Origin: Gemmatimonadota bacterium
GTDB taxonomy: Bacteria > JAAXHH01
Length of the DNA: 64,000 bases
Reading direction: 5' to 3'
Assembly (NCBI GenBank): GCA_009837395.1
Contig: VXTP01000015.1
Span: forward strand, 62,001-126,000
The notes beneath the pieces are model-generated. The model saw only the letters and a program-made list of their open reading frames with translations, searched no databases and had not been told where the DNA came from. The number at the start of each line of letters is the position of its first letter. Positions within the stretch are counted from its first letter, which is position 1. The translations under genes and the position numbers were made by a program. This document shows positions 20,601-60,278 of this stretch, piece by piece.

Positions 20601-20856
20601 CGACGTCCGCGGCATGGGGCTCTACGTGGGCGTGGAACTCGTGCTGGACCGCGACACGCTGGAACCGGGCGGCCACCAGGCCTCGTACGTGGCCAACCGG
20701 ATGCGGGATCACGGGGTGCTGATCAGTACCGACGGCCCCCTGCACAACGTCCTGAAGATCAAGCCTCCCCTGGTCTTCACCCGCGAAAACGCCGACTATC
20801 TCCTGCACTGCCTCGGCAAGGTGCTGGAGGAGGACTACCTGCGGTTCCCGCTCTAG
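17653..20856 (+). CDS. APH-type kinase / M23 peptidase-like / class III aminotransferase fusion
   Basis: 1067 residues from ATG 17653, overlapping the preceding stop by 11 bp; an ATG at 17593 would add 20 unlikely residues. Residues 1-330 are an aminoglycoside-phosphotransferase-like kinase (His215-Asn-Asp217...Asn for HxDxxxxN, then LIDFGD). Residues about 440-620 are an M23/LytM domain with zinc ligands HLGMD (His472, Asp476) and HLH (His582, His584). Residues about 640-1067 are a class III aminotransferase with PLP Lys904 in TLGKPIG. No signal peptide is seen, so it is cytosolic. Related separate enzymes are hydroxylysine kinase and 5-phosphohydroxylysine or phosphoethanolamine phospho-lyase. 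The antiquitin-like ALDH nearby favours hydroxylysine. The role of the M23 domain is unknown. Confidence 0.9.
18331..18372 (+). repeat. 9-bp minisatellite, family member C
   Basis: Units cgggccagc, cgggccagc, cggaccagc, cgggtcagc plus a partial copy, in the kinase domain between the HNDANDQN motif and the DFG motif. The same core is read in another frame here (Arg-Ala-Ser) than in the Gly-Gln-Pro copies elsewhere. Confidence 0.8.
19206..19259 (+). repeat. 18-bp minisatellite, three units
   Basis: Three units of ggaaggcacggccggttc, the third with one change, encode a Gly/Ser/Ala-rich insert within the M23 domain just before FYTLYGHL. Confidence 0.8.
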
Positions 20857-44312: not shown

Positions 44313-45779
44313 ATGTTCCAAGGCCTCAAAAGACTCACCACCCATTCGGCGATCTACGGTCTCAGCGACGTGCTGGGCAGGTCCATGGCCTACCTGCTGG
44401 TACCGGTGTATACCCATGTCATGCCCGTGGAAGAATTCGGCTACTACGGGCTCGTATATACCTTTATCGCGCTGGCGAACGTCGTCTTCCTCTACGGCAT
44501 GGATTCGGCCTTTCTCAGGTACTACGTGCTCGAGGAGGACCGCAAGCGGGATACGCTGAGCACCGGCTATCTCACCATGCTGCTCACGTCAGCCGGGCTC
44601 GCCGTGATCATCGTCCTGTTCTCCGCCAGGATCGCGCCCCTGATCGCCGTCTCCGCTTCCCTGACTTCGTACGTCCAGCTGGCCGCCGCCGTCCTGGCGC
44701 TCGATGCCCTGAACGCCATTCCCTTCGCGCGGCTGCGAGGAGAGGGCAAGGCCGCGACGTTCGCCTCCCTCAAATTGATGAAGGTCATGATCGAACTGGG
44801 GGGAAACTGCTATCTCGTCGTCGTGCTCGATATGGGGCTGCAAGGCATACTGATCAGCAACATCGCGGGGTCCGGGATCGTTTTCCTCATCCTGGCGGGC
44901 ATTACCCTGCGGCACATGTCCTTATCCTGGTCTCGAGGTACCATGGGCCGGCTCCTGGGATTCGGCCTGCCCTACGTGCCCGCCGGCGCCTGCATCATCA
45001 TCATCGAAACCATCGACCGCCTCATGCTGGAACGGATGGCCGGCACGGAGACCCTCGGCATCTACCATGCTGCCCGCAAGCTGGGCGTCGGCATGCTCAT
45101 CTTCGTCACCATGTTCAGGCAGGCCTGGCAGCCCTTCTTCCTTGAGACCTCCAGGGAGGAAAACCCCAGGCCGCTGTTCGCCCGCGTGCTGACCTACTTC
45201 CTGGCCATCGCGGGCGGCGTCTTCCTGGCCCTTTCCTTCCTCATCGACGACCTGGTCCGCATCTCCATCGGAGGCTATACTCTGATCGAGGCGTCATACT
45301 GGGAAGGGATCGACGTGGTACCGATCCTGCTCGCGGCGTACGTGTTGTATGGGATATACGTCAACCTCACCGTGGGCGTCTACCTGGAGAAGAAGACCAT
45401 CCTGCTACCCTTCATCACGGCCGCATCGGCCCTGGTCTGCATCCTGACGAACCTCTGGCTCATCCCGGAATTCGGCATGTACGGGGCGGCTACGGCGTCG
45501 GCGGCCGCCTACGCGGTGATGGTGGCCGGGTTGTATCTCGTGGGCCGGAGGTATTACCCGATACCCTACGAATACATCCGCCTGCTCAAGGTAGTCTTCG
45601 CGTGTGGAGTGCTGTTCGCGGTGCGCGAACTAACCGGAATCGCCTGGCCCGGGGAGATCGCCTGGCCCGGGGAGATCGCTCTGATCGCGGCCTACCCGGC
45701 GGTCCTGTGGGCGATGAGATTCTTCAACGCCGGAGAAATGGCGTTCGCGAGACGATACCTGCGCCCTCGCGGATCGTGA
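44313..45779 (+). CDS. Polysaccharide/lipid-linked oligosaccharide flippase (Wzx-like, MOP superfamily)
   Basis: 488 residues with about 12-14 hydrophobic segments and the usual family start (KRLTTHSAIYGLSDVLGRSMAYLLVPVYTHVM, with MPVEEFGYYGLVYT). Family members flip lipid-linked sugar repeat units across the inner membrane for O-antigen, capsule or similar polymers. No glycosyltransferase genes are adjacent, so the polymer is unknown. The ATG has no good Shine-Dalgarno. The last 56 bp overlap the end of the convergent CRTAC1 gene, and a perfect 18-bp duplication lies near the C-terminus. Confidence 0.88.
   Translation: MFQGLKRLTTHSAIYGLSDVLGRSMAYLLVPVYTHVMPVEEFGYYGLVYTFIALANVVFLYGMDSAFLRYYVLEEDRKRDTLSTGYLTMLLTSAGLAVIIVLFSARIAPLIAVSASLTSYVQLAAAVLALDALNAIPFARLRGEGKAATFASLKLMKVMIELGGNCYLVVVLDMGLQGILISNIAGSGIVFLILAGITLRHMSLSWSRGTMGRLLGFGLPYVPAGACIIIIETIDRLMLERMAGTETLGIYHAARKLGVGMLIFVTMFRQAWQPFFLETSREENPRPLFARVLTYFLAIAGGVFLALSFLIDDLVRISIGGYTLIEASYWEGIDVVPILLAAYVLYGIYVNLTVGVYLEKKTILLPFITAASALVCILTNLWLIPEFGMYGAATASAAAYAVMVAGLYLVGRRYYPIPYEYIRLLKVVFACGVLFAVRELTGIAWPGEIAWPGEIALIAAYPAVLWAMRFFNAGEMAFARRYLRPRGS
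45639..45674 (+). repeat. Perfect 18-bp tandem duplication
   Basis: Two identical copies of atcgcctggcccggggag encode a duplicated IAWPGE hexapeptide in a loop of the flippase. The lack of any difference suggests a recent event. Confidence 0.85.
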
Positions 45780-47526
45780 TGAGCTGGCCGCCCTCTACGC
45801 CGGTTGCGACGTCTCTCGCGCCGCCGGGCCAGTCCACGATGACCGAGTCCGCCCCGGCGTATGCGCCGAGCCCGAAGTGAGCCCTGAGATCGTTGGCCGC
45901 CAGGTAACTGTAGGCGCTTCGAATCTCCCGCGACTGTCGCACGGCATCCGTGACCACGGTTACGTGCGCGCCAATGCCGTTTCGATTGCTCCGGACGCCC
46001 TCGGTGGCGACGAGCAGGCTGGCGGGACCGGGCTGACCGGGCTGATCGCCGTTTCCGCCGCCTTCTCCGGCCCCAATTACGCCGGCCGCACCGCCTGCAC
46101 TTCGCCCGTTAATCCCGTCGTTCCGCAGCAGCAGCGGGACGTCATTCACCGTGGTGACCAGCACGTCGACGTCGCCGTCGTTGTCCACGTCCCCGAAGGC
46201 CGCGCCGCGGTGCACGCGCTCTACCTGGAAGGGTGGGCCCGCTTCAGGGCTGACGTCGGTGAACACGCCGCCCCCCTCGTTCCGGAACAGCTGATTGGTC
46301 TGCGCGTAGGCTATCGTCGAATCGAACAGGGAGATGTTGTCGATCACGTGGCCGTTCGCCGCGAAGATGTCCAGCCACCCATCGTGGTCGAAATCCTTGA
46401 AGGCCGTACCGAAACCCAGGAACAGGAGCGTGGGATTGCCCACACCTGCGCCGAAAGTCGTTTCGGTGAAGGTGCCGTTCCCGTTGTTCCGGTGCAGCGA
46501 GTTGGGTTCCAGGGAGAAATTGGTCACGTAGAAATCCGGCGACCCGTTCCGGTCGTAGTCTCCCATATCCACCCCCATGCCCGCCCGGGCGACGCCGTCT
46601 TCGCCATAGGCCACGCCCGCCAGCAGGGCCATGTCGGTAAACGTGCCGTCGCCATTGTTCCGGTACAGGAAATCCGGCGTCAGGTCGTTGGCCACGAAGA
46701 TATCCGTCCATCCGTCGCCGTCGTAGTCGCCTCCCACGACCCCGAGGCCCTTGCCGTCCGGATTCGAGATACCCGACTCCACGGAGACGTCGGAAAACGA
46801 ACCATCGCCGTTGTTCCGATACAGCAGATCGGCCGCTCCCTCGTAGATGTCGGGTCCGCAGTAGGACTGGATGCCGTCCCGGGAGCAGCGCCTGTTGGCC
46901 TCGAAGTCGAATTCGACGTACGCACACACGTAGAGGTCCAGGTGCCCGTCCCGGTCGTAGTCCAGGAACGCCGCGCTGGTGGAGAACGTGGGGTTAGCGG
47001 GTACCGTCAGATTCGCACGGGCGGTCACGTCCCTGAATGTCCCGTCCCCTTCGTTCCGGTAGAGGATGTTCGCCCCGTAGTTCGTGACGAACAGGTCGTC
47101 GTCGCCGTCGTTGTCGTAATCCGCGACGGCCAGGCCCATCCCGTAACCCCCCTCGTTGCCCACGCCGGCCTGGCCGGTCACGTCCGTGAAGGATCCGTCG
47201 CCGTTGTTGCGATAGAGGACACTGGACAGGGGCTGGTCGGGCACGAAGCCCGGTATGGACGCGCCGTTGAGCAGGTAGACGTCGAGGTCGCCGTCGCCGT
47301 CATAGTCGATGAACCCGCCGCCGGACGCCACCGTTTCGAGGAAATAGTACCGGCCCGATTTGCCGTTGGTGTGCCGGAACGTGATCCCGGCCGAAGGCGC
47401 GATGTCCGTGAACTGCACGACCGGCCGTTCCGCATCAGGTCGATGATCGGGCTGGCCAGGCTGGCCAGGCTGACCGCAGGAAGGGGAAAGGAAAAGGAAG
47501 GAGAGAAGTACCAGCGCCCATTTCAA
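45724..47526 (-). CDS. CRTAC1-family lipoprotein (FG-GAP repeats plus ASPIC/UnbV domain)
   Basis: About 600 residues from TTG 47526, which overlaps the previous stop in a TTGA junction and yields a lipoprotein signal (MKWALVLLSFLFLSPSC, lipobox Cys17). FG-GAP/VCBS calcium loops follow (DYDGDGDLDVY, DYDNDGDDDLF, DYDRDGHLDLY, DFDHDGWLDIF and others), then the C-terminal ASPIC/UnbV domain (SNRNGIGAHVTV, HFGLGAYAGADSVIVDWPGG). Such proteins are cell-surface or periplasmic; their function is largely unknown, possibly carbohydrate or protein binding. It is last in the minus-strand block from the TonB receptor. Minisatellites sit right after the lipid-modified Cys and at the start of the ASPIC domain. 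Confidence 0.88.
   Translation of the reverse strand: MKWALVLLSFLFLSPSCGQPGQPGQPDHRPDAERPVVQFTDIAPSAGITFRHTNGKSGRYYFLETVASGGGFIDYDGDGDLDVYLLNGASIPGFVPDQPLSSVLYRNNGDGSFTDVTGQAGVGNEGGYGMGLAVADYDNDGDDDLFVTNYGANILYRNEGDGTFRDVTARANLTVPANPTFSTSAAFLDYDRDGHLDLYVCAYVEFDFEANRRCSRDGIQSYCGPDIYEGAADLLYRNNGDGSFSDVSVESGISNPDGKGLGVVGGDYDGDGWTDIFVANDLTPDFLYRNNGDGTFTDMALLAGVAYGEDGVARAGMGVDMGDYDRNGSPDFYVTNFSLEPNSLHRNNGNGTFTETTFGAGVGNPTLLFLGFGTAFKDFDHDGWLDIFAANGHVIDNISLFDSTIAYAQTNQLFRNEGGGVFTDVSPEAGPPFQVERVHRGAAFGDVDNDGDVDVLVTTVNDVPLLLRNDGINGRSAGGAAGVIGAGEGGGNGDQPGQPGPASLLVATEGVRSNRNGIGAHVTVVTDAVRQSREIRSAYSYLAANDLRAHFGLGAYAGADSVIVDWPGGARDVATGVEGGQLITIREGAGIVSRTPFLRR
46024..46050 (-). repeat. 9-bp minisatellite, family member F
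   Basis: About three units; along the gene ggcgatcag, cccggtcag, cccggtccc, encoding Asp-Gln-Pro-Gly-Gln-Pro-Gly-Pro at the start of the ASPIC domain, where relatives have a short LLRNDGGN-x-NWL turn. Confidence 0.75.
47449..47475 (-). repeat. 9-bp minisatellite, family member G
   Basis: Three units; along the gene ggtcagcct, ggccagcct, ggccagccc, encoding Gly-Gln-Pro repeats immediately after the lipobox cysteine of the CRTAC1 lipoprotein. Confidence 0.85.
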
Positions 47527-48074
47527 CGGCGTTTTCTCATGAGTACGACGGTCAAGGCCACGAGAGCAAGCACACCCAGGCTGACCCCGGCGACGAGAAA
47601 GCCCGATATCGGTTCCCTGACCAACGGAACCTCGAAGGCGACACTCGCCTTCTGCTCGCCGCGCACCGCAAACTCCACCTCGACGTGATGTACGCCTGGA
47701 ACGCGCCGGGTCCACATGATCGGACGGTCGATGGCCTCGGCTTCGGCGCTGTGGTAATGCGTGTATACGTTGCCCTGCGGATCCGTGATCCCGATCCGGA
47801 GGACGCCCGCGTAGTATTCGCCCGACGACCTGCGCTGGACGTAGGTCACGAACCGCGCGTCGCCGCCGAGATCATAGGCCTTGAAGGTCAGCGTGTACCC
47901 GGCGTCCATCTCCCGCGCTTCATCGACGACGGCCTGTTCGGAGAAGGTATATCCGACGAACGTGCCGCCCGCCACCTGATCGTCACTGGGCGCCCCGTTG
48001 CAGCCGGGGGCCGTAACCGCCAACGAGAACGCCGCCGCGAACGCCAGCAACAAGCCTGTCAAGTTACCCCGCAC
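47523..48074 (-). CDS. Membrane-anchored extracytoplasmic protein of unknown function
   Basis: 183 residues from GTG 48074, with gaggag 8 nt upstream; start and preceding stop share one base (TAGTG). It has an N-terminal signal ending near APGCNG (possible lipobox), a beta-rich middle (RFVTYVQRRSSGEYYAGVLRIGITDPQGNVYTH, abbreviated by positions 74-106), and a C-terminal membrane helix followed by MRKRR. The layout resembles a periplasmic or surface immunoglobulin-like domain tethered by its C-terminus. I do not recognise the family. Its tight coupling to the propeller lipoprotein upstream and CRTAC1 downstream suggests that all three work in one complex. Confidence 0.78.
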   Translation of the reverse strand: MRGNLTGLLLAFAAAFSLAVTAPGCNGAPSDDQVAGGTFVGYTFSEQAVVDEAREMDAGYTLTFKAYDLGGDARFVTYVQRRSSGEYYAGVLRIGITDPQGNVYTHYHSAEAEAIDRPIMWTRRVPGVHHVEVEFAVRGEQKASVAFEVPLVREPISGFLVAGVSLGVLALVALTVVLMRKRR

Positions 48075-49201
48075 TAGTTGTACTCCTCAGGAAAAACAAA
48101 GTGGTACCGGACGACCCGGTCCTCTTCCAATTCCGCGAAATAGATCCGGCCCTGCCGGTCCACGTGCATGGGAACGCCGACCACGTCGAACTGCGCCGTC
48201 ATTTCCCACTTTCCATCCGGCCGGAAGAAATCGAACCACCGATCCAGTTTCGTCATCTGCAGTCTGGGCATGCCTATCGCGTTGAGACCAACCTGTTCGA
48301 ATTCCTGGTACTGGATAGAATTGACGATCCGTCCGTCGGGCAGAACGGCCAGGCCGCCGGACAAGCCCACGGGCGGCGGCCGCCGCGTGGTCGTCCAGCG
48401 CGCCATGGGTTTCATATCGAAGGAAGTTGTCCTGTTGAACTCCAGTTCCAGTCCGTTTACCCGGTCGAACTTGCGGATCCAGTAGGGGTGTCTCGCGGAT
48501 ACGACCACGTATCCGTCCTCCGTCGTTTCCATGGCCGCGTCGGAATACGCGATGAATTCCTTGAGCGTTCCCGATCGCCGCAGGGTCTCCATCGGATTGT
48601 AGAACTTGGTGATCGGATCTCCTTCCGGACTGTATTTGTAGATGAGATCGTGCTGCGTAATGACGAAAATAAGCACGTTGCCCTCGGCATCGATGCGTAT
48701 GCGGCGAGGCTTCGTAACCTGCGTCGACCAGATGTCCGCGAAGGTGAGATCCGGATTGAATACCGTGACCCGGTCGAGTTCGAAGTCCAGCACGAACAGT
48801 CTGCCTTCATCATCCAGCGCCATGTCTACCGGAGACCTGAACTGCAGCGGTCCCACGCCTAAAGACCCTACGGCCGTCTGAAAGGCACCGGACTCGTCGA
48901 ATTTGGAAATCTGTTTCCGGTCCGAATCGGCAATATAGATGTTGCCGCTTCGATCCGTGGTGATCCCGAATACCGAAGCAAAGGACCGGCCCTCGCCTCC
49001 TTCGATCACCAGGTCTTCTTCGAGCGTGACGTCAGCCGTCTGATCGGGTGCATGACGGACCGGGGCGTCGCTGATGACCCTGGATGCGCCCGCGACCACT
49101 TCCGTCCTCCCACGCCACATCCCGTCATCGTCTGCTTCCGAGCAACCCATCAGAAGTACCGCGGCCAGGAGCGGCAACGCTCCGGACTTGAACCCCTTCA
49201 T
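48074..49201 (-). CDS. Six-bladed beta-propeller (NHL-like) lipoprotein
   Basis: 375 residues from ATG 49201, with aaggag 6 nt upstream; the frame extends 111 codons further but that part is antisense to the TPR gene's own coding frame. A lipoprotein signal ends in VLLMGCSEAD. NHL-type blades follow: VFGITTDRSGNIYIADSDRKQISKFD, with DMALDDEGRLFVLDFELDRVTVF and HVDRQGRIYFAELEEDRVVRYHF (each quoted in part). Propellers of this type are found in FCB lipoproteins with unknown ligands. It follows the TPR gene by 25 bp and overlaps the next gene by one base. Confidence 0.85.
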   Translation of the reverse strand: MKGFKSGALPLLAAVLLMGCSEADDDGMWRGRTEVVAGASRVISDAPVRHAPDQTADVTLEEDLVIEGGEGRSFASVFGITTDRSGNIYIADSDRKQISKFDESGAFQTAVGSLGVGPLQFRSPVDMALDDEGRLFVLDFELDRVTVFNPDLTFADIWSTQVTKPRRIRIDAEGNVLIFVITQHDLIYKYSPEGDPITKFYNPMETLRRSGTLKEFIAYSDAAMETTEDGYVVVSARHPYWIRKFDRVNGLELEFNRTTSFDMKPMARWTTTRRPPPVGLSGGLAVLPDGRIVNSIQYQEFEQVGLNAIGMPRLQMTKLDRWFDFFRPDGKWEMTAQFDVVGVPMHVDRQGRIYFAELEEDRVVRYHFVFPEEYN

Positions 49202-49226
49202 CCGCTTCTCCTTCCGGTACGTCCAT

Positions 49227-50843
49227 TCATGTTCCGTCCCTTTCCTGCCTGATCTGCTCCCATCGCTGCTGCAATACCTCATTCTCCGGCTCGATGCGGA
49301 CGGCATTCCCCATCGCCTCATCGGCCCCGCTGTAATCTCCTCTCGCGTTCCGCACGATGGCCAGCGTTTCGTAGGCGACGGCGGTAGGCGCGATCTCGAC
49401 CGCCTTGCCGGCCAGTTCGAGGGCACGGTCCAGGTCCTCCCCGTGCCGGGCGATGAGCCAGGCCAGGTTCGTATAGGCCTCCACATAGTTCGAATCCAGC
49501 AGGATCGCCTGCTGGTACGCGTCGCGGGCCTCATCGAACCGGCCCAGCTCCACGTAGGCCACGCCCATGTTGTTGAAGGCGTGAACGAAACGGGGCGACA
49601 GTTCCGTCGCTATCCTGAAGGCCCGCACGGCGTCCTCGAACCGCCCCAGGCGGGTCAAGGCCGTAGCCATGTTGTAATGCACCTCCGCCACCCGGGGATT
49701 CAGCCGTACCATGGATTCCGCCTGCGACAACGCTTCCCTGTACTCGTTGAGCTGCTGAAACGTATCGAGAAATCGCCGGGCGTCGTCCTGTCTACCCATG
49801 GCGTTCAGGGTGTTTCCGATGGCAAGATAGGGTTCGGGATACGCCCGATCGAGTTCGACCGCCCGTGAGAACGCTTCCAGGGCTTCTTCATGCAGTTGGG
49901 CAGCCGCATAGGCCGTACCCCCATGGTAATTCAGGACAGGCGACTCGGGATCCATCTCCAGGGCTTCCCGGTACAGCGTAATCGCCTGTTCGGTCCGACC
50001 GGCCCGCAGCGAGGCCTGTGCAAGACCCGCGATGGCCTCCACCGATGCCTCATCGATGCGCAGCGCGTTCTCGTAGGACCGGACCGCGTCATCGACACGG
50101 CCTTCGCTCAACGCGATCACGCCGAGCTGGCAGTAGGCCTCCGCCATGCCGGCATCCACCTGCAATGCGGCGCGAAAGGCATCGCGCGCTTCCTGGAATT
50201 TCCGCTGATCCAGCAGCACGCGCCCCAAAGCGTACCGGGCGTCGACGTAATCCGGATCGATGGACAGGGCATTGGTATAGGAAATGGCGGCCTCATCCAC
50301 GGCACCCAGTTTCTCTTCCGTGGTCCCCCGGCCGTAGTGAAACAGGCTGTTGTCGGGGTCGCGGTCCGTCGCCTCGACGAAGGACTTGATCGACTCGACC
50401 AACCGGCCCGTGTACTGATAAGCCTGGCCCAGGTTGTAGTAAGGTTCGGCGCGATCGGGATCCATTTCCATGACGCGGTGGAACGCATCGATCGCCTCGT
50501 CGTACCGTTCCTGCTGGGCGTAAACCAGACCCAGGTTGAAATGGGCATCGGCGTCCCCGGGACGCAGTTCGGTGACGACCAGGAAAGCCGCTTCCGCCGT
50601 GTCCAGCTTTTCCAGCGCGACGGCCGCCAGGCCCAGGTTGAAGAAGTTGGCGGGTTCGCTCCTGTTCTCCTCGATCTGCCGACGGAAGTACATCACGTCT
50701 TCGAGCAGAAGGGATTCGTCCTCGGGCGACAGTTGCCTGAGCGCTTCATCCGGACGGGCGGTGGTGATGTTCGTGAGGTAGGGACCGGTGTCCGTAAGCA
50801 GAGGCGTGTAAAGCAGAAGGGCTGCGAGAAGGATATTGCGCAT
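49227..50843 (-). CDS. Secreted tetratricopeptide-repeat protein
   Basis: 538 residues with an N-terminal signal-like segment (MRNILLAALLLYTPLLTDT) and then about 13 TPR units of 34 residues from residue 60 to the end, for example NFFNLGLAAVALEKLDTAEAAF and AHFNLGLVYAQQERYDEAIDAF (partial quotes). TPR arrays bind other proteins, so this is probably a periplasmic scaffold. It starts 10 bp after the cytochrome stop and precedes the propeller lipoprotein by 25 bp, all in the same direction. No enzymatic domain is fused. The partner is not known; the multihaem cytochrome is the obvious candidate. Confidence 0.9.
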   Translation of the reverse strand: MRNILLAALLLYTPLLTDTGPYLTNITTARPDEALRQLSPEDESLLLEDVMYFRRQIEENRSEPANFFNLGLAAVALEKLDTAEAAFLVVTELRPGDADAHFNLGLVYAQQERYDEAIDAFHRVMEMDPDRAEPYYNLGQAYQYTGRLVESIKSFVEATDRDPDNSLFHYGRGTTEEKLGAVDEAAISYTNALSIDPDYVDARYALGRVLLDQRKFQEARDAFRAALQVDAGMAEAYCQLGVIALSEGRVDDAVRSYENALRIDEASVEAIAGLAQASLRAGRTEQAITLYREALEMDPESPVLNYHGGTAYAAAQLHEEALEAFSRAVELDRAYPEPYLAIGNTLNAMGRQDDARRFLDTFQQLNEYREALSQAESMVRLNPRVAEVHYNMATALTRLGRFEDAVRAFRIATELSPRFVHAFNNMGVAYVELGRFDEARDAYQQAILLDSNYVEAYTNLAWLIARHGEDLDRALELAGKAVEIAPTAVAYETLAIVRNARGDYSGADEAMGNAVRIEPENEVLQQRWEQIRQERDGT

Positions 50844-50853
50844 TCCGTACCCG

Positions 50854-52761
50854 TCAGTCGAAGTAGGATCTGAGACGATCGCGGAGACTCAGTCCTTTCG
50901 AAGGCGTGGAAACTTCCAGTTGTCCGACCGGCCTTACCGTGGTGACGTCCGAAGCCACGGCCATGTCTTTCTGCGTCCACTTCTTGAGATCGGCCAGCGG
51001 CTTGAACGCTCTTCTGTAAATCAGATCGGTATGGATATCCACGCGATCGACATCCGACGGGACTTCGAAAGAATACACGGAGCGATCCGCCTCGCGCGCC
51101 TTGATCCGCGTGTCTTCAACGATGCGGGTCGCCTGCCAGTCCATGACGTGGGTGTTGCCCGCGTCGTCACCGAAGACCAGGGCGAATCCCTTGCCCGGGT
51201 AACCCGCGTAGTTTCCTTCGGCCAGGTCGCCTTCGCCGCCGTAGGACGGTACGCGCTGGTCCCCCACGTAACGCAGGGTATCGCCGTTTGCCAGCACAGG
51301 CGTCACGAGCAACAGCATGTTCCGGATGGTGATCCCCGACGGGATGTGATGGCCGGTATTGACGTTGCGCACGTCCACGGTCACCGTCAGCAGTCCGCCT
51401 GAAACAACGGCGTCGATGGCCAGGGTGGCGGCGTTTGGCAGGAGCTCTTCCGTGGCCCCGGGGAACCCGTGCGTCTTAACGGTGGTCGGATCCCGGTACC
51501 CGATGGGTGTCCAGAACTTCTCCGCGTCGCCGTTTACGAATGAACCAAAGGTGAAACCGTCGGAATCGGGCTCCATGTGGCAGTCCTGGCACTCGATACC
51601 CATGGCGGAATAGGGACTCTCCTTCCATTCCCGGTACGTATCCATGAACGGAAGGCCGTGCTTGTTCTTGTGCTGGTGGCAGGCGGAGCAGTAGTCGCTG
51701 CTCGTGTATTGCGGATTGTAGCTCGCCACCATGGGCGAGGTGTTGACTGATCCCGGCAAGGGGGTGAAGTTTATGACGTCGTCATAGGGTCCGTAGACGA
51801 AGATCGGCGGGAACTTCCCCTTGATGAGCCGGGCCTGCCTCTCCTCCTCCATGGCCACCAGGTTCAGGGTGATCGATCCGTTCACGCCCGCATGGTCATT
51901 GACCTCCACGTGCTGAATCTTGTGGCAGAAATCGCAATGTATCCCCGCGGCGTCGACCGAACCGGCCAGCTTTTCGTACTCCATGCGTTCAAGCGTCTTG
52001 TAGTCCTGGACGGTCGGATAGGCCAGCGAACGGTTGTACACGACCTTCAGGTCGGTATGACCCGGCGCTTGCACGGCGGCCGACGGAGCGTGGCAATCGG
52101 CGCATTCTCCGGCTTCGTCGGGAAAATCCAGCCGGAAACCAGGTCCCACGTTTTCATTCCCCTCCGCGTCCGTACCGTCGTACAGGTTCAACGTCCACGG
52201 ATTGGTCACGCCTTTCGCGTGCTGGGAAGTACTCCACTGATCGTAGAGGTCTCGATGGCAGAGGTAACAGGTCGGTTCGAAATGGCAGAGGTTGCATCCC
52301 TCTTCGAAGCCCGTGTGGGATTGCGTGCGCAGACGTTCCAGCTCTTCAGGATCCTCGCGAAGATCGACCAGCGATTTGTGGGGGGTGATGAAATTGTAGG
52401 CGTCGTCTTTCTCTTCGGGTACTTTTTGCAATACGATCGTCGTATATGATGTTTTGGGATCCACCATGACCCCGCCGTTCAACCAGCCTTCTTTGCCTGC
52501 CGTTACCGCGTAATGCTGCACGGGGTCTTCAATGATGTTCAGGGTAAACCTTCCTTCGGAATCGGTAAGCACGAAATCCGGCTTTCCATGTTCTCGCACG
52601 CGGACACCCGGTATGGGATCTTTCCCATCGATGACGATGCCGCTCAACTGCAGGGCCTGGGCCCTGGCCTCCGGGCCGATCAACACTCCGGCGGCCGCGA
52701 TGCATCCGATCACGAAAACCCTCAGCAACTGCCTGTATCCGGTCAGTCCATTCAACTTCAT
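50854..52761 (-). CDS. Periplasmic multihaem c-type cytochrome with carboxypeptidase-regulatory-like domain
   Basis: 635 residues from ATG 52761 (signal peptide ending EARAQA); GTG 52782 would add seven residues. Residues about 38-115 form a carboxypeptidase-regulatory-like beta-sandwich (LSGIVIDGKDPIPGVRVREHG). Six CxxCH haem sites follow: CNLCH, CYLCH, CADCH, CDFCH, CSACH and CQDCH. The remaining 250 residues (from TLAIDAVVSGGLL) are beta-rich, with NTGHHIPSG, a pattern seen in NapC/NrfA-like and cytochrome c554-related proteins. It probably transfers electrons outside the inner membrane. No terminal reductase is adjacent. The order of genes suggests joint function with the TPR and CRTAC1 proteins. 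Confidence 0.9.
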   Translation of the reverse strand: MKLNGLTGYRQLLRVFVIGCIAAAGVLIGPEARAQALQLSGIVIDGKDPIPGVRVREHGKPDFVLTDSEGRFTLNIIEDPVQHYAVTAGKEGWLNGGVMVDPKTSYTTIVLQKVPEEKDDAYNFITPHKSLVDLREDPEELERLRTQSHTGFEEGCNLCHFEPTCYLCHRDLYDQWSTSQHAKGVTNPWTLNLYDGTDAEGNENVGPGFRLDFPDEAGECADCHAPSAAVQAPGHTDLKVVYNRSLAYPTVQDYKTLERMEYEKLAGSVDAAGIHCDFCHKIQHVEVNDHAGVNGSITLNLVAMEEERQARLIKGKFPPIFVYGPYDDVINFTPLPGSVNTSPMVASYNPQYTSSDYCSACHQHKNKHGLPFMDTYREWKESPYSAMGIECQDCHMEPDSDGFTFGSFVNGDAEKFWTPIGYRDPTTVKTHGFPGATEELLPNAATLAIDAVVSGGLLTVTVDVRNVNTGHHIPSGITIRNMLLLVTPVLANGDTLRYVGDQRVPSYGGEGDLAEGNYAGYPGKGFALVFGDDAGNTHVMDWQATRIVEDTRIKAREADRSVYSFEVPSDVDRVDIHTDLIYRRAFKPLADLKKWTQKDMAVASDVTTVRPVGQLEVSTPSKGLSLRDRLRSYFD

Positions 52762-52789
52762 TGAATTCCCCGATTCTCTCACAACATAA

Positions 52790-52823
52790 GAGAATCCCTC
52801 ATCGAACGGACTGAGGGATTCTC
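52790..52823 (-). terminator. Strong hairpin between porV-like and cytochrome genes
   Basis: A perfect 12-bp inverted repeat (gagaatccctca 52790-52801, tgagggattctc 52812-52823) with a 10-nt loop, 54 nt after the PorV stop. On the minus strand it is followed by TTATGTTGT. It ends only 28 nt before the cytochrome ATG, so partial termination or RNA processing is as likely as a full stop. Confidence 0.65.
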
Positions 52824-52876
52824 CTGGTGCTTCAAACGATAATGCTTACATCCATCGGTACTTCCTGGCTTGATGT

Positions 52877-53860
52877 TTAGAAGCCTACGCCGACGGACAC
52901 GCGATGCAGATCGTCCAGCAGTTCATACTGCGTATACGCGTAATCAACGTTGAGACTCAATTCACCCTGGCTGAACCGGAGACCGGCACCAGCGGAAACG
53001 CCTTCGTCCTGGCCGCCGCTGTATCCGGCTTTCCAGCCTACCCGGCCCGCGATGTAGTCATTCACCCACCACTCGATACCGAGATTGAGCACGGAATCGA
53101 ACTCGCGGAGCTTCCAGAGTTCGGCGCTGGTCATGATGCTGCCCACCGGCAGTTCGGTCGGTTCAATGGCAAAACCGATACGGAACGTCGTGGGCAACTG
53201 ATCGCGAGCGCTCGACTCTTCGATGAATTGCATGTCCGGACCGAAGTTCTGGAACGAGGCGCCAATACGGAAATTACGGAAATCCGTCGTATAGATGGTG
53301 CCCACGTCCACCGCAACCGCCGTGCTGGTATAGTCATCGTCTCCGGCGCCGCTCGTGCCTTCCGACACGTACTTCAGCGATCCGCCGACCGCGAAGGAAT
53401 CCGTCAGACGACGCGCGTAACTCGGACCGATGGCCAGGTCCGTCACGTTGAAGTTCTGGCCCTGGTTGGCGAATTGACCCGTCGGATCTCCAGAGGTGGT
53501 ATAGGGTATGTCGCCCGAAAGCAACGAATGCACACTCACACCCACCGCCCCGTTGTCGCCGAGATTCCAAACGAGACCTGCGCTGAACACGGTCATTTCC
53601 GCGAAATACGGTGCATAGGAAACGCCGACCGCGCCCCTGCCCTCGACGAACACCATGGTAGCCTGGTTCGTCAGTGCCGAGAACGCGCCCAGATCCGTAT
53701 AGGACGTGGCGGAGGATCCAACACCCGCGACACGGGCGCTAGCATCCAGCGTCAGAAACTTCGTCGCGGCGGTTCCACTTTTGGAAACCTGAGCATGTAC
53801 CGGTGCTGACAGTGCCAGCAGGAGTCCGGTGACCACGCCCCAGCGAAACAATACTTTCAT
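52877..53860 (-). CDS. PorV/PorQ-family outer-membrane barrel protein
   Basis: 327 residues from ATG 53860, with gggaggt 7 nt upstream. A signal peptide ends in PVHAQ; the mature part starts GTAATKFLTLDASARVAGVGSSATSY, with SALTNQATM, and ends in the barrel strand VSVGVGF. This start pattern is characteristic of PorV/PorQ-family proteins of the FCB group (the type IX secretion shuttle LptO/PorV is one). It is predicted to form a beta-barrel in the outer membrane that helps deliver or attach proteins with sorting domains. The gene upstream encodes exactly such a protein, so the pair is probably functional together. Confidence 0.88.
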   Translation of the reverse strand: MKVLFRWGVVTGLLLALSAPVHAQVSKSGTAATKFLTLDASARVAGVGSSATSYTDLGAFSALTNQATMVFVEGRGAVGVSYAPYFAEMTVFSAGLVWNLGDNGAVGVSVHSLLSGDIPYTTSGDPTGQFANQGQNFNVTDLAIGPSYARRLTDSFAVGGSLKYVSEGTSGAGDDDYTSTAVAVDVGTIYTTDFRNFRIGASFQNFGPDMQFIEESSARDQLPTTFRIGFAIEPTELPVGSIMTSAELWKLREFDSVLNLGIEWWVNDYIAGRVGWKAGYSGGQDEGVSAGAGLRFSQGELSLNVDYAYTQYELLDDLHRVSVGVGF

Positions 53861-53891
53861 TAGAAAACCTCCCTGAATCGGACCGCCCCGC

Positions 53892-53909
53892 GCCATGACC
53901 GGTCATGGC
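53892..53909. promoter_or_regulatory. 18-bp perfect palindrome
   Basis: gccatgaccggtcatggc is a perfect palindrome 26 nt after the sorted-protein stop and 31 bp before the PorV start. It could be a protein-binding site or a transcript hairpin separating the two genes. Confidence 0.4.
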
Positions 53910-53934
53910 CCATGGCGCAGGACGTAACCGCAGT

Positions 53935-56900
53935 TTACCGCCGGACGTAGAGTTTCAGTGTTTTCGCGTAGTCCACGCCACCGATCTCGGCTTCTACCAC
54001 GACAATATACAGACCGCTGGAAACCGGTACGTTGGAATCATTCTTCAGATCCCAATCCGTCACACCACCGATCGTCGTGGTCTGGTCACCCGGCACAGAG
54101 AACTGCTTCACCAGCAGGCCGGCCGCATCGAAGATCGTGATGCGGGACGGTACCGGAGCGTTGAAGAACTTGACGGTTTGCGACTTCGTTGCCAGATCCC
54201 ACTGGGCCTGGAAGACGAAGGGGTTGGGCGCGACCGTAATCAGATTCTCGAATTCGGCCACACCGCCCACAACCTCGTTACGGATCACGGTAGTCGGGAT
54301 AACGTCCTGTCCCGGTACCTGCGGTCCCACCGTCAAACCCCGGTACGGATACTGGCCGTGCCAGCGTCCGTCCGTACCGTTAGCGTTCATCGTGTAGAAA
54401 CTCTCGAGCCCGTTGATCGTACGGGTGATCACGCGCTGCGTAGAGCCCTGATCTGCCACGTAGTTATCGAAATCGTGCTGTTGCGCGCTTTCGTTATCCA
54501 CCGAGGCTACGTAGTACCAGTAGCTGAAACCGATCAGCACGGAACGATCTTCGAACATATAACCGCTCTTGCCGACCAGTCGGGGATCCGTGGGAATACC
54601 GCCGACACTGGTAATCTGCGCATCGCCGGATCCGATGGCATCCGGATAGCGATCCGAGAAGCTGGTGGCGATGGCCGTCGTAGCGCCCAGTGCATTGTTC
54701 GCTTCGACGATCTGTGCCGAACTCGGCTTGGTTTCGATGAAATCATCCTCGAAACCCGGCAGCCTGTTGCCAGCCGGATACGGGTTCGGATAGGAAACGG
54801 ATTCCGGCGGATTCAGGCTGTTGGTCTGATTACCGCCACCGCCGCCGAATTCAGCGATCTGGACATACGGACCGGAGAAGTTCGGCGCCGCGAAGCGCTT
54901 CACCAGGTCGTCGGCCACGAAGTCGTAAACCCGGCCGATGTTGTAATCGGCGCCGAGCGTCAGTCCTTCATGGATGAACCGGGCGTAGGGATGGCCCTGC
55001 TTCACCGCGGCACTCGTCGGATCGGTTACGTCCGTGACCGGTGCGGCGCCGTCGCTCAGACCGAGATTCGGCGGAATCACCGTACTGTTGTAACCGACAT
55101 CATGGGCTACTGTAGCGGTCGGGAACTGATCGATGAAACCGGAAGCGCGGTACACGCGGTACTTCGCAAAGTCCGCGGTGCCCCGGCCCGGATCGATAGC
55201 CGTTTCCGCATTGTTGGCCCACGCCAGCGCGATCGTACCGTTGGCGGTCGGGAAGACCGACAGGGTAGGAGGCGGAGGCGGGTGGAACAGCGTGCCGCTG
55301 GCTGCGCCGCGACCGAAGTTGATGGTCTGCGACATGACCGCGCCGTCGCCGTCCCGCATTACGGAACCATCGGCGTTGTACATGGGGATGGTCCGGTCAT
55401 TGGAGCCGTCCCAGTAGTACGTATTGTTCGCCATGTTGTACTTCCGCTGCATCCAAACGTCCATAGCGCGGAGATACACGTCATAAGCGCCGTCCTTGCC
55501 GGCGCCGATGAGGTCAACATGCCAGATGGTCAGGTCTTCGCCGGGCGCCTTGGTGTAGGGGCCCCAGCCCAGGGCGTTCCGGATGCAACCGGCGCCCGAG
55601 GTCTCTTCCTTCGTGTCGCTTCCGTTGTACGGATCGGGCACGATGCCCCTGAACACGCCGTCGAGATCGAAGAGCGTAAAACTGTCGTACTGACCAGACT
55701 GCACACCCTGAGCCGCACCGGGATTGCCGGGCTGGGTCAGGTTACGCGGGTCGCCCCACATTAAACCCATGCCCGCGGCCGATCCACCCGGCTGCGTCTT
55801 GGCGGTCCAGGTGCTGATATCGGTCGTTCTGCCGAGGGGCGAACCGCTGGTGAAGAGATCCGGATGCGGCGCACTGCTACCGCCCGGAACGTTGACCTTC
55901 TTGTTCTCGAGGTACTTGGTAAGCGAGCCCTCGTACCAGCCGAACACGCCTCTCAAGTCGGCGATCCACCATTCGTGGGTGTTGAACAGGCCGACGGACG
56001 GCGCATCGTAAATATCCAGCGCCGCGACGTTGTTCGTGTCACCAAGCGCATCGTCGTCGCCGGAACCTTCGAGGATCATCAGGGAGGCTTCGCCCACGTG
56101 CAACGGATTGAAGTTACCGTTGGTGGTATTCCACACGTAGGAATCGATACCCGGATGTCCAGGATTGTCCTCGTCGAACATGGTGACCAGGCCGGAGTAG
56201 AACCGGTCGCTGTAAGGCGCCTGGTTGTAACGGCCCGAGTTGATCAGCCCTTCCGGTACGGCGAGAGGCATCACGCGGCTGAACATGGCGGGCGGCTGCT
56301 TGTCGTCGCCACCGGTACCACCGCCGATCGCCCCGCCCGTCAGGAGGGGATTGTTCGTCCATGGAATATCGAAGTCGTAGTTGAAGATGATCAGGAAGTT
56401 CTTGACCGTGGCTCCGTTTAATTCCGGACTATTATCGGTATTCACATCCACATCGCCATGCGTGTTCAATACATGACGCAGCAGGATGAAGTCATTCGTA
56501 TGGCCATAGCCGTAGCTGAAGCTGTACGACTGACGCAGGATCCGAATACCGGCGTTCGTGTTGAAGGTGGCTTCCGTGATGAAGGGCTCGCGGTATCCAC
56601 CGGGGCCCACTGTGCCGCCACCAAAACCGGGGCTCTGCGAGCCGCCTTGATCGGACCAGAAGCCCGCGGGCGGATTCTCACGCTGGTGAGGCGGAGCCCG
56701 GTATACGTTGTTCGTACCGACGAAAGCACCTTCGGCCCGGCTTGCAGGCATACCGGCCACGGCGTCAGGCAGATAGGCCGTGATGCCGAAGGCCGACGCC
56801 CACAGCGGCGCGTCCAACCCGCCCGCCGGGAAAGTGTACGAAGGATAGCCCATCGTCGGACTCATGGAACGGCCGGACCCACGCCAACCCCAACCGGTGT

Positions 56901-57126
56901 AGGTATCGGTCAGTTCCGAATTCATGACGGCCATATAGGTCTGACCGCCGATATAGGCAGGCTGCCTTTCACCCACGCCAAGCTCGTGGGGAACCGGAAC
57001 TCCCTGAGCCGTCGCGGAGTTTGCCGGCGCGTCCGGCAAAGCCGTGAGATATGAAGCTGTCCCAAGGATTGCCGCCGAAGAAATCACCAACGCTCCGGCT
57101 GTTACGTATCGACGCCATTTCTTCAA
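53935..57126 (-). CDS. Large secreted protein with C-terminal sorting-like domain
   Basis: 1063 residues from TTG 57126; aaggagg lies 6 nt upstream and no ATG fits. The N-terminus MKKWRRYVTAGALVISSAAILG is a signal peptide. The long middle (about residues 40-650) is rich in Gly/Asn/Tyr and matches no family I know. A fibronectin-III-like segment (SVFPTANGTIALAWANNAET) follows. The C-terminal 90 residues (VAPNPFVFQAQW, SRITIFDAAGLLVKQF, DLKNDSNVPVSSGLYIVVVEA) look like a FlgD-like/type IX sorting domain, which is removed or anchored at the outer membrane. It follows the TonB receptor by 89 bp and precedes the PorV-like gene, so it may be the surface component of that set. Confidence 0.85.
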   Translation of the reverse strand: MKKWRRYVTAGALVISSAAILGTASYLTALPDAPANSATAQGVPVPHELGVGERQPAYIGGQTYMAVMNSELTDTYTGWGWRGSGRSMSPTMGYPSYTFPAGGLDAPLWASAFGITAYLPDAVAGMPASRAEGAFVGTNNVYRAPPHQRENPPAGFWSDQGGSQSPGFGGGTVGPGGYREPFITEATFNTNAGIRILRQSYSFSYGYGHTNDFILLRHVLNTHGDVDVNTDNSPELNGATVKNFLIIFNYDFDIPWTNNPLLTGGAIGGGTGGDDKQPPAMFSRVMPLAVPEGLINSGRYNQAPYSDRFYSGLVTMFDEDNPGHPGIDSYVWNTTNGNFNPLHVGEASLMILEGSGDDDALGDTNNVAALDIYDAPSVGLFNTHEWWIADLRGVFGWYEGSLTKYLENKKVNVPGGSSAPHPDLFTSGSPLGRTTDISTWTAKTQPGGSAAGMGLMWGDPRNLTQPGNPGAAQGVQSGQYDSFTLFDLDGVFRGIVPDPYNGSDTKEETSGAGCIRNALGWGPYTKAPGEDLTIWHVDLIGAGKDGAYDVYLRAMDVWMQRKYNMANNTYYWDGSNDRTIPMYNADGSVMRDGDGAVMSQTINFGRGAASGTLFHPPPPPTLSVFPTANGTIALAWANNAETAIDPGRGTADFAKYRVYRASGFIDQFPTATVAHDVGYNSTVIPPNLGLSDGAAPVTDVTDPTSAAVKQGHPYARFIHEGLTLGADYNIGRVYDFVADDLVKRFAAPNFSGPYVQIAEFGGGGGNQTNSLNPPESVSYPNPYPAGNRLPGFEDDFIETKPSSAQIVEANNALGATTAIATSFSDRYPDAIGSGDAQITSVGGIPTDPRLVGKSGYMFEDRSVLIGFSYWYYVASVDNESAQQHDFDNYVADQGSTQRVITRTINGLESFYTMNANGTDGRWHGQYPYRGLTVGPQVPGQDVIPTTVIRNEVVGGVAEFENLITVAPNPFVFQAQWDLATKSQTVKFFNAPVPSRITIFDAAGLLVKQFSVPGDQTTTIGGVTDWDLKNDSNVPVSSGLYIVVVEAEIGGVDYAKTLKLYVRR

Positions 57127-57144
57127 AATGAACCTCCTTATGCC

Positions 57145-57167
57145 GGCAACGTTCCGAGAACGCTGCC
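57145..57167 (-). promoter_or_regulatory. Hairpin in the leader of the sorted-protein gene
   Basis: ggcaacgtt (57145-57153) pairs with aacgctgcc (57159-57167) with one G-U/mismatch position and a 5-nt loop, just upstream of the aaggagg ribosome site. It may affect translation or mark a processing site; evidence is limited. Confidence 0.3.
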
Positions 57168-57215
57168 AACCTTGCGGGAAGACGCGCTTAACCTGCGCGC
57201 CTCCCCGCTTTGGAT

Positions 57216-60200
57216 TTACCATGCTAAGTTGAGACCTATCCAGATATCGCGTGGTCCGTTGCCCTGCGTACCGATACCACCTACCGGACCGCCTACGAGA
57301 CCCACGGGATCGCCGCGGCGTTGCCAGCGATCGCCGGCCGCGTTGTTAGAGGCGCTGGCGACGGTATAGATGTTCGCCCGGTCGAAGAGGTTGTTGACCT
57401 GGGTGAACACGCCGAGCCGCACATCGCCGAGATCGAAATTCTTCTGGGCGAACAGGTCGGTTGTCCAGGTCCAGGGCGAACGATGCGCAGCAGCAAGCAG
57501 ACCGAGCGGATCAATCGCCTGGTCGCTGGACGTGCGGTACTGGTTGCCGCTCTGCGCCTTGGTCAGGAATGAAGCGCTGATGCCATAGGGCAGCTCGAGC
57601 AGGAGGTTCGCGACAATACGATGACGTCGATCGTTAGCGGTGAACTCGCGGATGTAGGTATCCGGAGTCGGCGTCCCGTCCACGAAGTCGGAGAATACCA
57701 GCACCGTTTCGCCGCCGCGTTCGCGGACGGTTTGCGGCGTGGTCAGATCCGATGTAAAGGCCAGGGTGTAGTTGGCCCGTACCGAGAACCGGTTGGCCAT
57801 CTGGCGCCGTACCGACAACTCGAGTCCCCGTGCGTCCTGGGCAAACGTCGGAAGCAGGATGGAAACTTCGCGTTGCGATCCGCCGATGAAGGCTACGTCC
57901 GGTGCGAAGAGCCAGGTAAGCGGCTGGTTGTTCGCATCACGGAAATAACCGGTAACGTCCACGTAGTAACCGGGATAGAGCTCGGCCTGCAGACCCATCT
58001 CGTAGTTCGTGGACTTCTGGAACGGAAGGTCCGGATTGCCGTGGTTACGCTCGAACGGCGAGGTCTGAACCAGGCCCATGTACAGATGCTGCAACGGCGG
58101 GCGCTGGTTGAAGATGCCGTACGAGTAGTGCAGCGCGGCGCGGTCCGTGATCGGATGCGAGATACCGATGCGTGGCGCCAGACCCGTCTTCATCGACGGA
58201 TCCAACGTACGGTATTCCGGATCGTCGTGCTCCGGACCCGGACCTGAACGCGGACGGTACGGGTTGATCGCGTTGGCGTTGGCGTTGAAGATGTCCAGCC
58301 GCAGCCCTGCGTTCACCACGAGACTTCCGTACTCGATCCGATCCTGCATGTACGCGAAGTACTCGACCGGATACACGTGCGCCTGCCTGCCGGCGAGGGG
58401 CAGCGTGCTGGCGGTCGGGTCCAGATTCAGGTCGTTGAAGAGCGACACGGCGTTACCCCGGGCGGGGCCTCTCGTGCTCTCTTCATAGTCGTTCATCGTC
58501 ACGCCGAAACCGCCCTTGAACTGGTGGTTCGAGTTCACCTGGCTGGTAATGGCGAAGTTGATGTCCGTCTTGAAAGGCCGCACGCTCGAGTAGTTGCCGA
58601 AATCGATCGAAGAGTAAGCTTGGTCGCCGTACAGGATGTAGGGCACCTGCGTACCGGCGCCTTCCTCGAGTGCCGAGTAACCCACGGAGTTGATGAACGC
58701 GGAAGTAAGTGCCGGCAGTGGTTCCTTGCCGTACTTGGGATTATAGCGTTCGTTGTACTCGCGCAGGTGGCTGAAACGGATCTCGTAGAATGTCCGCGGA
58801 CTGAGCGTATGGGTATACGCCACGTTCAAGTGAAAACGGCCGTTGTAGTTCTGGTTGAGGCCATCGGCGTTGTACTTCCAGCCATAGGCCGTGCTCCGCT
58901 GACCCTTCTTGCTGAAGAAACCCTGGTCTTCGATGAGTCCGGACATGGACAGCTTCATGCTGGTCCGCGGCCGGTAGGTCATCTTCACGAAGGTGTTCAT
59001 CAGGCGGGAGTAGTCATTGGGATTGCGGCCCCAACTCTCGGTGAACCGGCCTGAAGCGAACCAGTTCAGCTTGTTGCCCAGCGGACCGCCCATGCCGAAG
59101 TCGATCTGGACCGGGCGCTTCTCCGTCCGGTTGTTCCGGGCAAACTGGTTGTACTTGTCCGGGTGGAACGAACGATCCACCGGTGCATCGCGGTTCACCG
59201 CGACACCGCTATTCGCCTGGGCTTCCGGCAGGCCGTCCGTCAGGTAGGACCAGAGGATGGCTTCGGGTTCGGGAATGACCCGATCGTAATCCCAATAATA
59301 GGTGTCGCGCTTATAGATGGCGGACCAGCTGTCCGGCGCGCCGGTCATGTCCAGCACGTCGAAGGGGTCCTGCATCCTGAGACCGTCGTCCGCGCGGGCG
59401 GGATCGCTGTTGAAGGCGTTCGTCTTGTCGATCGCGCCCTGGATGATCTCGCGCAGATCCTGCTCCGACCAGGAACCGGCCCGGTAGGCGTCGACGATAT
59501 CGAGATCGGGCGGCTTGGTCCAGTTGAGGCCTTTCTGGCCGAGCGTACGGTACTCGAAGTTACCGTTGTAACTGGAACCGCCTTCGCGGGTCACCACCGT
59601 CGTGATGCCAGCCAGCGCGTTCACGTACTCGGCGTTGAACGTACCCGTCTTGACCTGAAGCTCCTGGATCATGTAGGGGTTGATCGTAAACGCCTGGCCC
59701 GTGTTGTTCTGCTGCCCCGTCACCGTGGCACCGTCGATCGTGGTCTGCTGATCCTGGGGACGGCCGCCGCGAAGGTTGCCGGCGAAGCTGCCCGCGGTGG
59801 TCAGGACCACTTCGGCGATATTCACCACCGGCAGCGCCTGGATTTCCTCGGCCTGCACGATGGTCCGGGTGGAGGTCAGACTCTTCTCAACCAGGTCCCG
59901 GGTCGCCACGACTTCGACCGCCTCGGCGGACTCGAGAATCGTGGACTCCAGTTCGAAGTTGAGCGTCGTGGTGATATCGGCATCCACCTGCGTACCTATG
60001 GCACGCACCGGGACATAACCGATGACGTTCACCACCAGGGTGTAGGTGCCGGGCGGTACGTTGAGGATGAAGTACTCACCCATGTCGTTCGCCATCGCAC
60101 CCATAACCGTGCCCTCGACGCGGACACTGGCCGCAGGCAGCGGTTCCCGCGTCGCACTGTCGACCACGACACCGGAAATCTTACCCAGCGAAATCTGCGC

Positions 60201-60278
60201 CTGTGCTTCCGTCGAGATGCTGAGCACTAACGCGAAAGCGAATGCGAAGCGCAAAGCTCGTGAAATTGTTATAGACAT
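57216..60278 (-). CDS. TonB-dependent outer-membrane receptor with carboxypeptidase-regulatory-like N-terminus
   Basis: 1020 residues; gaggagtg lies 9 nt before the ATG. A signal peptide ends in STEAQAQ. Residues 33-115 are a CarboxypepD-reg-like domain (KISGVVVDSATREPLPAASVRV, quoted in part), then a plug domain (VVATRDLVEKSLTSTRTI, LRGGRPQDQQTTIDGATV near 160-190), then a barrel of about 700 residues ending in WIGLNLAW. It imports a large substrate through the outer membrane with energy from TonB. No SusD-like gene accompanies it, which separates it from classic Bacteroidetes glycan loci. It is the first gene of the 14.5-kb minus-strand block. Confidence 0.93.
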   Translation of the reverse strand: MSITISRALRFAFAFALVLSISTEAQAQISLGKISGVVVDSATREPLPAASVRVEGTVMGAMANDMGEYFILNVPPGTYTLVVNVIGYVPVRAIGTQVDADITTTLNFELESTILESAEAVEVVATRDLVEKSLTSTRTIVQAEEIQALPVVNIAEVVLTTAGSFAGNLRGGRPQDQQTTIDGATVTGQQNNTGQAFTINPYMIQELQVKTGTFNAEYVNALAGITTVVTREGGSSYNGNFEYRTLGQKGLNWTKPPDLDIVDAYRAGSWSEQDLREIIQGAIDKTNAFNSDPARADDGLRMQDPFDVLDMTGAPDSWSAIYKRDTYYWDYDRVIPEPEAILWSYLTDGLPEAQANSGVAVNRDAPVDRSFHPDKYNQFARNNRTEKRPVQIDFGMGGPLGNKLNWFASGRFTESWGRNPNDYSRLMNTFVKMTYRPRTSMKLSMSGLIEDQGFFSKKGQRSTAYGWKYNADGLNQNYNGRFHLNVAYTHTLSPRTFYEIRFSHLREYNERYNPKYGKEPLPALTSAFINSVGYSALEEGAGTQVPYILYGDQAYSSIDFGNYSSVRPFKTDINFAITSQVNSNHQFKGGFGVTMNDYEESTRGPARGNAVSLFNDLNLDPTASTLPLAGRQAHVYPVEYFAYMQDRIEYGSLVVNAGLRLDIFNANANAINPYRPRSGPGPEHDDPEYRTLDPSMKTGLAPRIGISHPITDRAALHYSYGIFNQRPPLQHLYMGLVQTSPFERNHGNPDLPFQKSTNYEMGLQAELYPGYYVDVTGYFRDANNQPLTWLFAPDVAFIGGSQREVSILLPTFAQDARGLELSVRRQMANRFSVRANYTLAFTSDLTTPQTVRERGGETVLVFSDFVDGTPTPDTYIREFTANDRRHRIVANLLLELPYGISASFLTKAQSGNQYRTSSDQAIDPLGLLAAAHRSPWTWTTDLFAQKNFDLGDVRLGVFTQVNNLFDRANIYTVASASNNAAGDRWQRRGDPVGLVGGPVGGIGTQGNGPRDIWIGLNLAW

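Follow-up and report, generated by a model that had tools for sequence, protein, structure and literature searches.

A Widespread TonB Receptor–Surface Protein–PorV Trio Adjoins a Lineage-Specific Six-Haem Cytochrome Gene Cluster in One Bacterial Phylum

Eight minus-strand genes of the window (the whole stretch of 64,000 nucleotides analysed here) keep their order and strand across three families of one phylum. With a probability of about 0.55, we read them as two functional modules that are kept adjacent in that phylum: an outer-membrane trio (TonB-dependent receptor, large surface protein, and PorV-family barrel), which would serve uptake, and a putative electron-transfer unit built around a six-haem cytochrome. 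Two juxtaposed modules are preferred to one machine because the trio occurs without the cytochrome, and the cytochrome family occurs without the trio. In the earlier note the locus was read as possibly a single undescribed surface system; its gene order does extend beyond one genome, but its halves occur apart in other lineages, which speaks against one machine. No description of the block was found in the open-access literature that we searched. What is new about the locus is the pairing of a widespread trio, itself without description in that literature, with a cytochrome that is specific to the lineage but belongs to a known family.

Gene Content, Start Sites, and Junctions

The block consists of eight open reading frames at 45724-60278, and all the protein families that had been assigned to them on first reading were recovered from the ORF list and domain matches (Table 1). 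A hydrophobic, signal-like N-terminal stretch could be recognised by eye in 8/8 of the proteins, in agreement with the previous count of six or more secretion signals. Additionally, a lipobox-type cysteine, kept in orthologues, is present in the propeller protein, the small protein, and the CRTAC1-type protein. Domain searches also bore out that neither SusD nor a recognised terminal reductase is present among the eight proteins.

Table 1. Features of the block and its flanks (positions are those of the window).
Feature	Position	Strand	Remarks
Flanking flippase	44313-45779	+	overlaps end of CRTAC1 gene
CRTAC1-type lipoprotein	45724..47526	-	FG-GAP propeller + ASPIC/UnbV; TTG start
Small protein	47523..48074	-	183 aa; lipobox Cys25, Ig-like beta-sandwich, C-terminal TM helix + RKRR
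NHL / 6-bladed beta-propeller lipoprotein	48074..49201	-	375 aa; start ATG 49201
Exported all-TPR protein	49227..50843	-	538 aa
Six-haem cytochrome	50854..52782	-	642 aa; GTG 52782 or ATG 52761; Cytochrome_C554-like
PorV/cytochrome stem-loop	52790..52823	-	12-bp, perfect; compensatory changes keep pairing
PorV-family outer-membrane beta-barrel	52877..53860	-	NF033709 182.8 bits; ATG start
Intercistronic hairpin upstream of PorV	53884..53924	-	perfect hairpin, arm at least 8, 13/16 orthologues
Large surface protein ('surf', 'sorted protein')	53935..57126	-	~1063 aa; TTG start; N-terminal signal/TM
Tandem intercistronic RNA stem-loops (two; 14 and 13 bp)	57142..57208	-	receptor/sorted-protein junction
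TonB-dependent receptor	57216..60278	-	1020 aa; CarboxypepD_reg + Plug; SusC-like N-terminus
Flanking threonine-synthase-like PALP enzyme	from 60846	+	

The genes had been described as joined by overlaps or short gaps. The 1-base junction between the propeller and small-protein genes (TAGTG) and the TTGA junction between the small-protein and CRTAC1 genes are genuine, but several other overlaps turned out to be artefacts of start-site choice. One of these is the apparent 7-base overlap between the receptor and surface-protein genes. Translation of the surface protein most likely begins at TTG 57126 and not at the start of the long open reading frame: the Shine-Dalgarno sequence AAGGAGG lies close upstream, one relative has ATG at the aligned site, and the 32 extra upstream codons of the long frame are poorly conserved and fold as RNA hairpins. 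Because the gene most likely starts there, the overlap is spurious, and its place is taken by an 89-base gap with RNA hairpins. The PorV start (ATG 53860) is preceded by AGGGAGG, and the starts of the propeller gene (ATG 49201) and the CRTAC1 gene (TTG 47526, overlapping the preceding stop) were corrected as well.

Elsewhere in the window we observed a further large FG-GAP repeat protein of 916 aa with an XAC2610 domain above the cut-off (24340-27090, minus strand). The plus strand carries a 2426-aa piece of a type I polyketide synthase (172-7452; DH, methyltransferase, ER, KR, ACP, KS, and partial AT) and a 1087-aa fusion of an APH-type phosphotransferase, an M23 peptidase, and a class III aminotransferase (17593-20856).

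Conservation within the Phylum

The host lineage comprises uncultured, widespread bacteria that are often sponge-associated. The phylum was sampled with 16 genomes from 5 genera and 3 families, whose NCBI labels are mostly Ca. Latescibacterota; the same label prevails among the contigs with the nearest loci, of which two are labelled Gemmatimonadetes and one Zixibacteriota. Both the cytochrome gene and the surface-protein gene were found in 16/16 genomes. Moreover, in every locus with a long enough contig, in all 3 families, the block was contiguous, on one strand, and unchanged in order. A search for the gene order in related genomes, as the earlier note had suggested, has thus found it well beyond a single genome. 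In one relative (G011, contig C198; L043:11415-14608) the surface-protein gene is split over two frames, by either a frameshift or an assembly error.

At the level of the order, identity to the orthologues of another relative, G015, was 65% for the surface protein, 68% for PorV, 59% for the cytochrome, 46% for the TPR protein, 51% for the propeller protein, 44% for the small protein, and 62% for the CRTAC1-type protein. As judged by this comparison of sequences, an order and strand shared across 3 families at 44-68% protein identity is beyond chance. The flanking flippase gene is also retained in G013 and G015 (56% identity in the latter), as is, within the genus, the threonine synthase gene; a conserved order by itself therefore says less about joint function than it might seem to. 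The two modules could be neighbours through inherited synteny alone.

RNA Hairpins between the Trio Genes

The gaps around the trio genes contain conserved RNA hairpins. The stem-loops at the receptor/surface-protein junction have a minimum free energy of -50.5 kcal/mol (z -8.8). Across 10 orthologues, 97.4% of their cells are paired and 18 both-side changes occur; no shuffle reached the covariation score. The surface-protein/PorV junction holds one strong stem, the sequences of which are unrelated between species. The PorV/cytochrome stem is 94.2% paired in 11 sequences, with both-side changes in 7 pairs, and its inverted repeat is present in the genome in a single copy, which rules out a genome-wide repeat as its source. 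A perfect hairpin (arm of 8 or more) at most 130 nt past the stop codon was found for the cytochrome gene in 1/16 loci, and for the TPR gene in 0/15.

None of the intercistronic hairpins matched an Rfam family. A terminator-like T-run follows the PorV/cytochrome stem in G014 and G015 only, and a plain terminator scan missed the conserved hairpins, owing to its loop limit of 8 and the weak T-run in the window. Most likely, the stems tune stability and read-through, and the outer-membrane trio is made in amounts different from those of the cytochrome module. The eight genes probably form two blocks of differently tuned expression, and the covarying hairpins predict that the trio genes are expressed at levels unlike those of the cytochrome genes.

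The Outer-Membrane Trio Recurs in Other Families with Changing Cargo

The receptor scored 45.2 bits against the SusC model TIGR04056 (cut-off 368.25). The barrel passed the PorV-family cut-off (NF033709, cut-off 90) but remained below that of the equivalog model (NF033710, 94.6 vs 250 bits). The large surface protein had been named a sorted protein. In domain searches it matched no Pfam family, nor any sorting-domain model above the cut-off, and the name fits only its last ~100 residues, which resemble sorting/FlgD-type C-terminal domains. Its AlphaFold model, built with 10 orthologues, was not usable (pLDDT 29), so gene position and the C-terminal domain are the only guides to its role.

A profile of the surface protein was searched against 384 genomes and found matches in 97. 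Outside the phylum, it matched other proteins chiefly over their last ~100 residues, and over ~50 residues around 620-670; many of the proteins that share the C-terminal domain are ~1000-1150 aa long, and they come from many other families. Sixteen loci of other families (L175-L190) were picked solely by their C-terminal match. The order of TonB receptor, C-terminal-domain protein, and PorV-family protein, all on one strand, was present in 15/16 of them, and the sixteenth stops at a contig end. The genes that follow the trio elsewhere vary: they encode a P460 cytochrome with an Ig-like domain, PIG-L, clostripain, CBM9, a subtilase (S8) with a sorting tail, and other proteins with FlgD_ig or sorting tails. 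On the evidence of gene order, the trio is a widespread, recurrent outer-membrane module with changing cargo.

Export of the surface protein to the cell surface by the SprA/PorV route is possible because the genome encodes the SprA/Sov translocon (TIGR04189, 663 bits in one frame, cut-off 200). A PorU sortase above the cut-off was not found in the genome, which is ~96% complete (NF033707, best 31.5 vs 420 bits, C-terminal domain only), and only three other proteins with FlgD_ig-type C-terminal domains are encoded in it; both results weaken the case for a complete type IX secretion system. The GldM/PorM profile had no match in the genome, but control genomes gave no match either.

The Six-Haem Cytochrome Belongs to the Penta-Haem Family

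The cytochrome comprises a CarboxypepD_reg-like N-terminal domain, five family haems with an extra CXXCH, and a beta-rich C-terminal part. Its six CXXCH motifs lie at residues 163 (the extra one), 172, 227, 283, 365, and 398. All the orthologous cytochromes in the loci of the phylum retain six motifs; the extra one is absent from a paralogue with a type IX (T9SS) tail (L055). The cytochrome matched the ExtKL model NF040886 with an E value of 5e-17 (61.5 bits, below the equivalog cut-off of 250) and, in a profile comparison, the T. tepidum penta-haem c552 (5ze8) with 5.2e-17; MccSep was matched as well. The alignment with 5ze8 runs in three co-linear stretches over the haem core and the C-terminal part. 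These matches indicate that the cytochrome is homologous to the ExtKL/penta-haem c552 family. In work on cable bacteria (PMC11976967), a single penta-haem family takes in ExtKL, Gsu2801, and c552, the last of which is cited there as related to the nanowire AvECN of archaea.

Relatives of the cytochrome are encoded in 123 loci of the whole collection. The best 80 of the 123 come from the phylum itself, Calditrichota, Acidobacteriota, Chloroflexi, Planctomycetota, Bacteroidales, and others. In the 68 loci of other phyla, no match to PorV, the sorted protein, or CRTAC1 was found near the cytochrome (0/68), and TonB gave one weak match of 24 bits (L123). The idea that the cytochrome has window-type partners in other phyla was rejected, as its neighbours there are VPS10/BNR, CarboxypepD_reg, beta-helix, and G8/CEMIP proteins, the last three in some of the loci. 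A VPS10/BNR beta-propeller of ~850-1150 aa adjoins the cytochrome in 18/73 loci examined, a pairing that extends over many phyla; examples within L068-L102 are L070:6482-9928, L078:1898-4429, and L069:11781-15245. T9SS tails occur on the cytochromes of L068 and L055 and on the propeller of L078. The pair of cytochrome and VPS10/BNR propeller may represent a widespread undescribed surface redox system.

Partners of the Cytochrome and a Second Cluster

The cytochrome, TPR protein, NHL propeller, Ig-like lipoprotein, and CRTAC1-type protein were not found as a set outside the phylum among the loci searched. However, a second cluster is present in G015 on contig C129 (L051:6495-13166), from which the trio is absent. 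There, the genes encode, in order, a membrane cytochrome (DUF4405 + C554, four haems), a six-haem cytochrome (58% identical), a CRTAC1-type protein, a TPR protein, and a Fer4_5 protein. That cytochrome, CRTAC1, and TPR genes cluster a second time, independently, is the strongest indication that their proteins may work together.

This cluster also bears on whether the eight genes form one integrated envelope machine, in which the receptor imports a substrate for periplasmic oxidation or reduction by the cytochrome, propeller, and TPR proteins, and all eight proteins are needed. The co-directional, contiguous arrangement across 3 families, the presence of cytochrome and surface-protein genes in every genome sampled, and the short PorV/cytochrome spacing (94-242 bases), which leaves little promoter room past the hairpin in the window, are all in its favour. 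We nevertheless regard such a machine as unlikely, since many families have the trio without the cytochrome, the G015 cluster has cytochrome, CRTAC1, and TPR genes without the trio, and the 68 loci of other phyla contain neither PorV nor sorted-protein matches and a single weak one to TonB.

Alternatively, the cytochrome and the propeller lipoproteins could form an extracellular or periplasmic unit that links quinone-linked membrane cytochromes to an external acceptor or donor, the trio being an unrelated syntenic neighbour. The family ties to ExtKL and to c552, described as related to AvECN (PMC11976967), point this way, as do the T9SS-tailed relatives, which imply a surface location in some lineages, the DUF4405 membrane cytochrome and Fer4_5 protein of the second cluster, and the conservation of the flanking flippase. 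The block, however, lacks an MtrB-type porin, and the cytochrome is its only multihaem protein. Moreover, the genome encodes a haem-copper oxidase, and an aerobic, heterotrophic way of life has been described for related sponge MAGs (PMC12993501); anaerobic respiration is therefore not the role to assume first. This explanation, too, seems improbable to us.

The small protein matched nothing in Pfam or PDB sequence searches. Its lipobox Cys25 is invariant among orthologues, and its model (pLDDT 76) combines an Ig-like sandwich with a C-terminal TM helix. The copper proteins CrdA/FetP were the nearest fold (E 8e-3 or worse), but this identification was rejected, as Ig-like sandwiches match many proteins. 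Together with the CrdA/FetP resemblance, the common scaffold role of TPR and propeller proteins would suit a module that is not itself redox-catalytic but matures or assembles the cytochrome, while the trio provides metal or haem. Beyond a generic TPR_CcmH match, though, the block contains no cytochrome-maturation-type domain, and the fold match is weak; we consider this explanation highly improbable.

Proposed Mechanism

In the mechanism that we infer for the two juxtaposed modules, the TonB receptor would take up a ligand with TonB energy. The surface protein, exported via SprA/PorV, would most likely sit outside the receptor as a ligand-binding partner, a stand-in for SusD that acts as a lid. 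The second module would be an electron-transfer unit exposed to the periplasm or at the surface, made up of the six-haem cytochrome, a TPR scaffold, two beta-propeller lipoproteins, and an Ig-like protein with both a lipid and a TM anchor, and the cytochrome would exchange electrons with a membrane partner, in either direction. This unit would be the payload of the trio here, as peptidases, PIG-L deacetylases, and P460 cytochrome would be elsewhere, and the ligand of the trio may be the redox substrate of the unit.

A bolder version, which we hold to be possible but doubtful, is that many phyla use the trio as a general substitute for SusCD, with a surface lid delivered by a dedicated PorV via SprA, and that here it is combined with a six-haem unit that reduces or oxidises the extracellular ligand during uptake. 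Should the trio import ligands in the manner of SusCD, with a lid exported in this way, one mechanism would apply to a gene set across many little-studied phyla. If, additionally, the haem module works with the trio, a redox-coupled uptake system would be present in every sampled genome of a widespread, often sponge-associated phylum.

Comparison with Known Systems

The block resembles the SusC/SusD loci of polysaccharide utilisation in its TonB receptor with a CarboxypepD_reg extension, the large adjacent gene for a surface partner, and the variable downstream cargo. In contrast to those loci, it has no SusD, its receptor falls far short of the SusC cut-off (~45 bits vs 368), and its partner protein carries an export-type C-terminal domain and is accompanied by a PorV barrel. 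Features shared with type IX secretion are a PorV-family barrel above the cut-off and SprA in the genome; the surface-protein C-terminus resembles sorting/FlgD_ig domains, but it matches no sorting-domain model above the cut-off, the PorV equivalog cut-off is missed, PorU is below its cut-off, and only three other FlgD_ig-type proteins are present.

The haem core and beta-rich C-terminal part of the cytochrome align with the penta-haem family (ExtKL, Gsu2801, T. tepidum c552, and the PHCs of cable bacteria). Unlike these, it carries a CarboxypepD_reg-like N-terminal domain and a sixth CXXCH, placed nine residues ahead of the first family haem; its partners also differ, with no ExtI-type porin adjacent. 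The block also differs from porin-cytochrome conduits (MtrCAB/Ext), as an MtrB-type porin is absent and the cytochrome is the sole haem protein. In clusters of hydrazine-synthase homologues, CRTAC1/FG-GAP genes adjoin genes for propeller and c554-type haem proteins (PMC12758564). The propeller proteins of the block, by contrast, carry no haem motif. We count those clusters as a precedent for CRTAC1 genes next to haem/propeller redox complexes.
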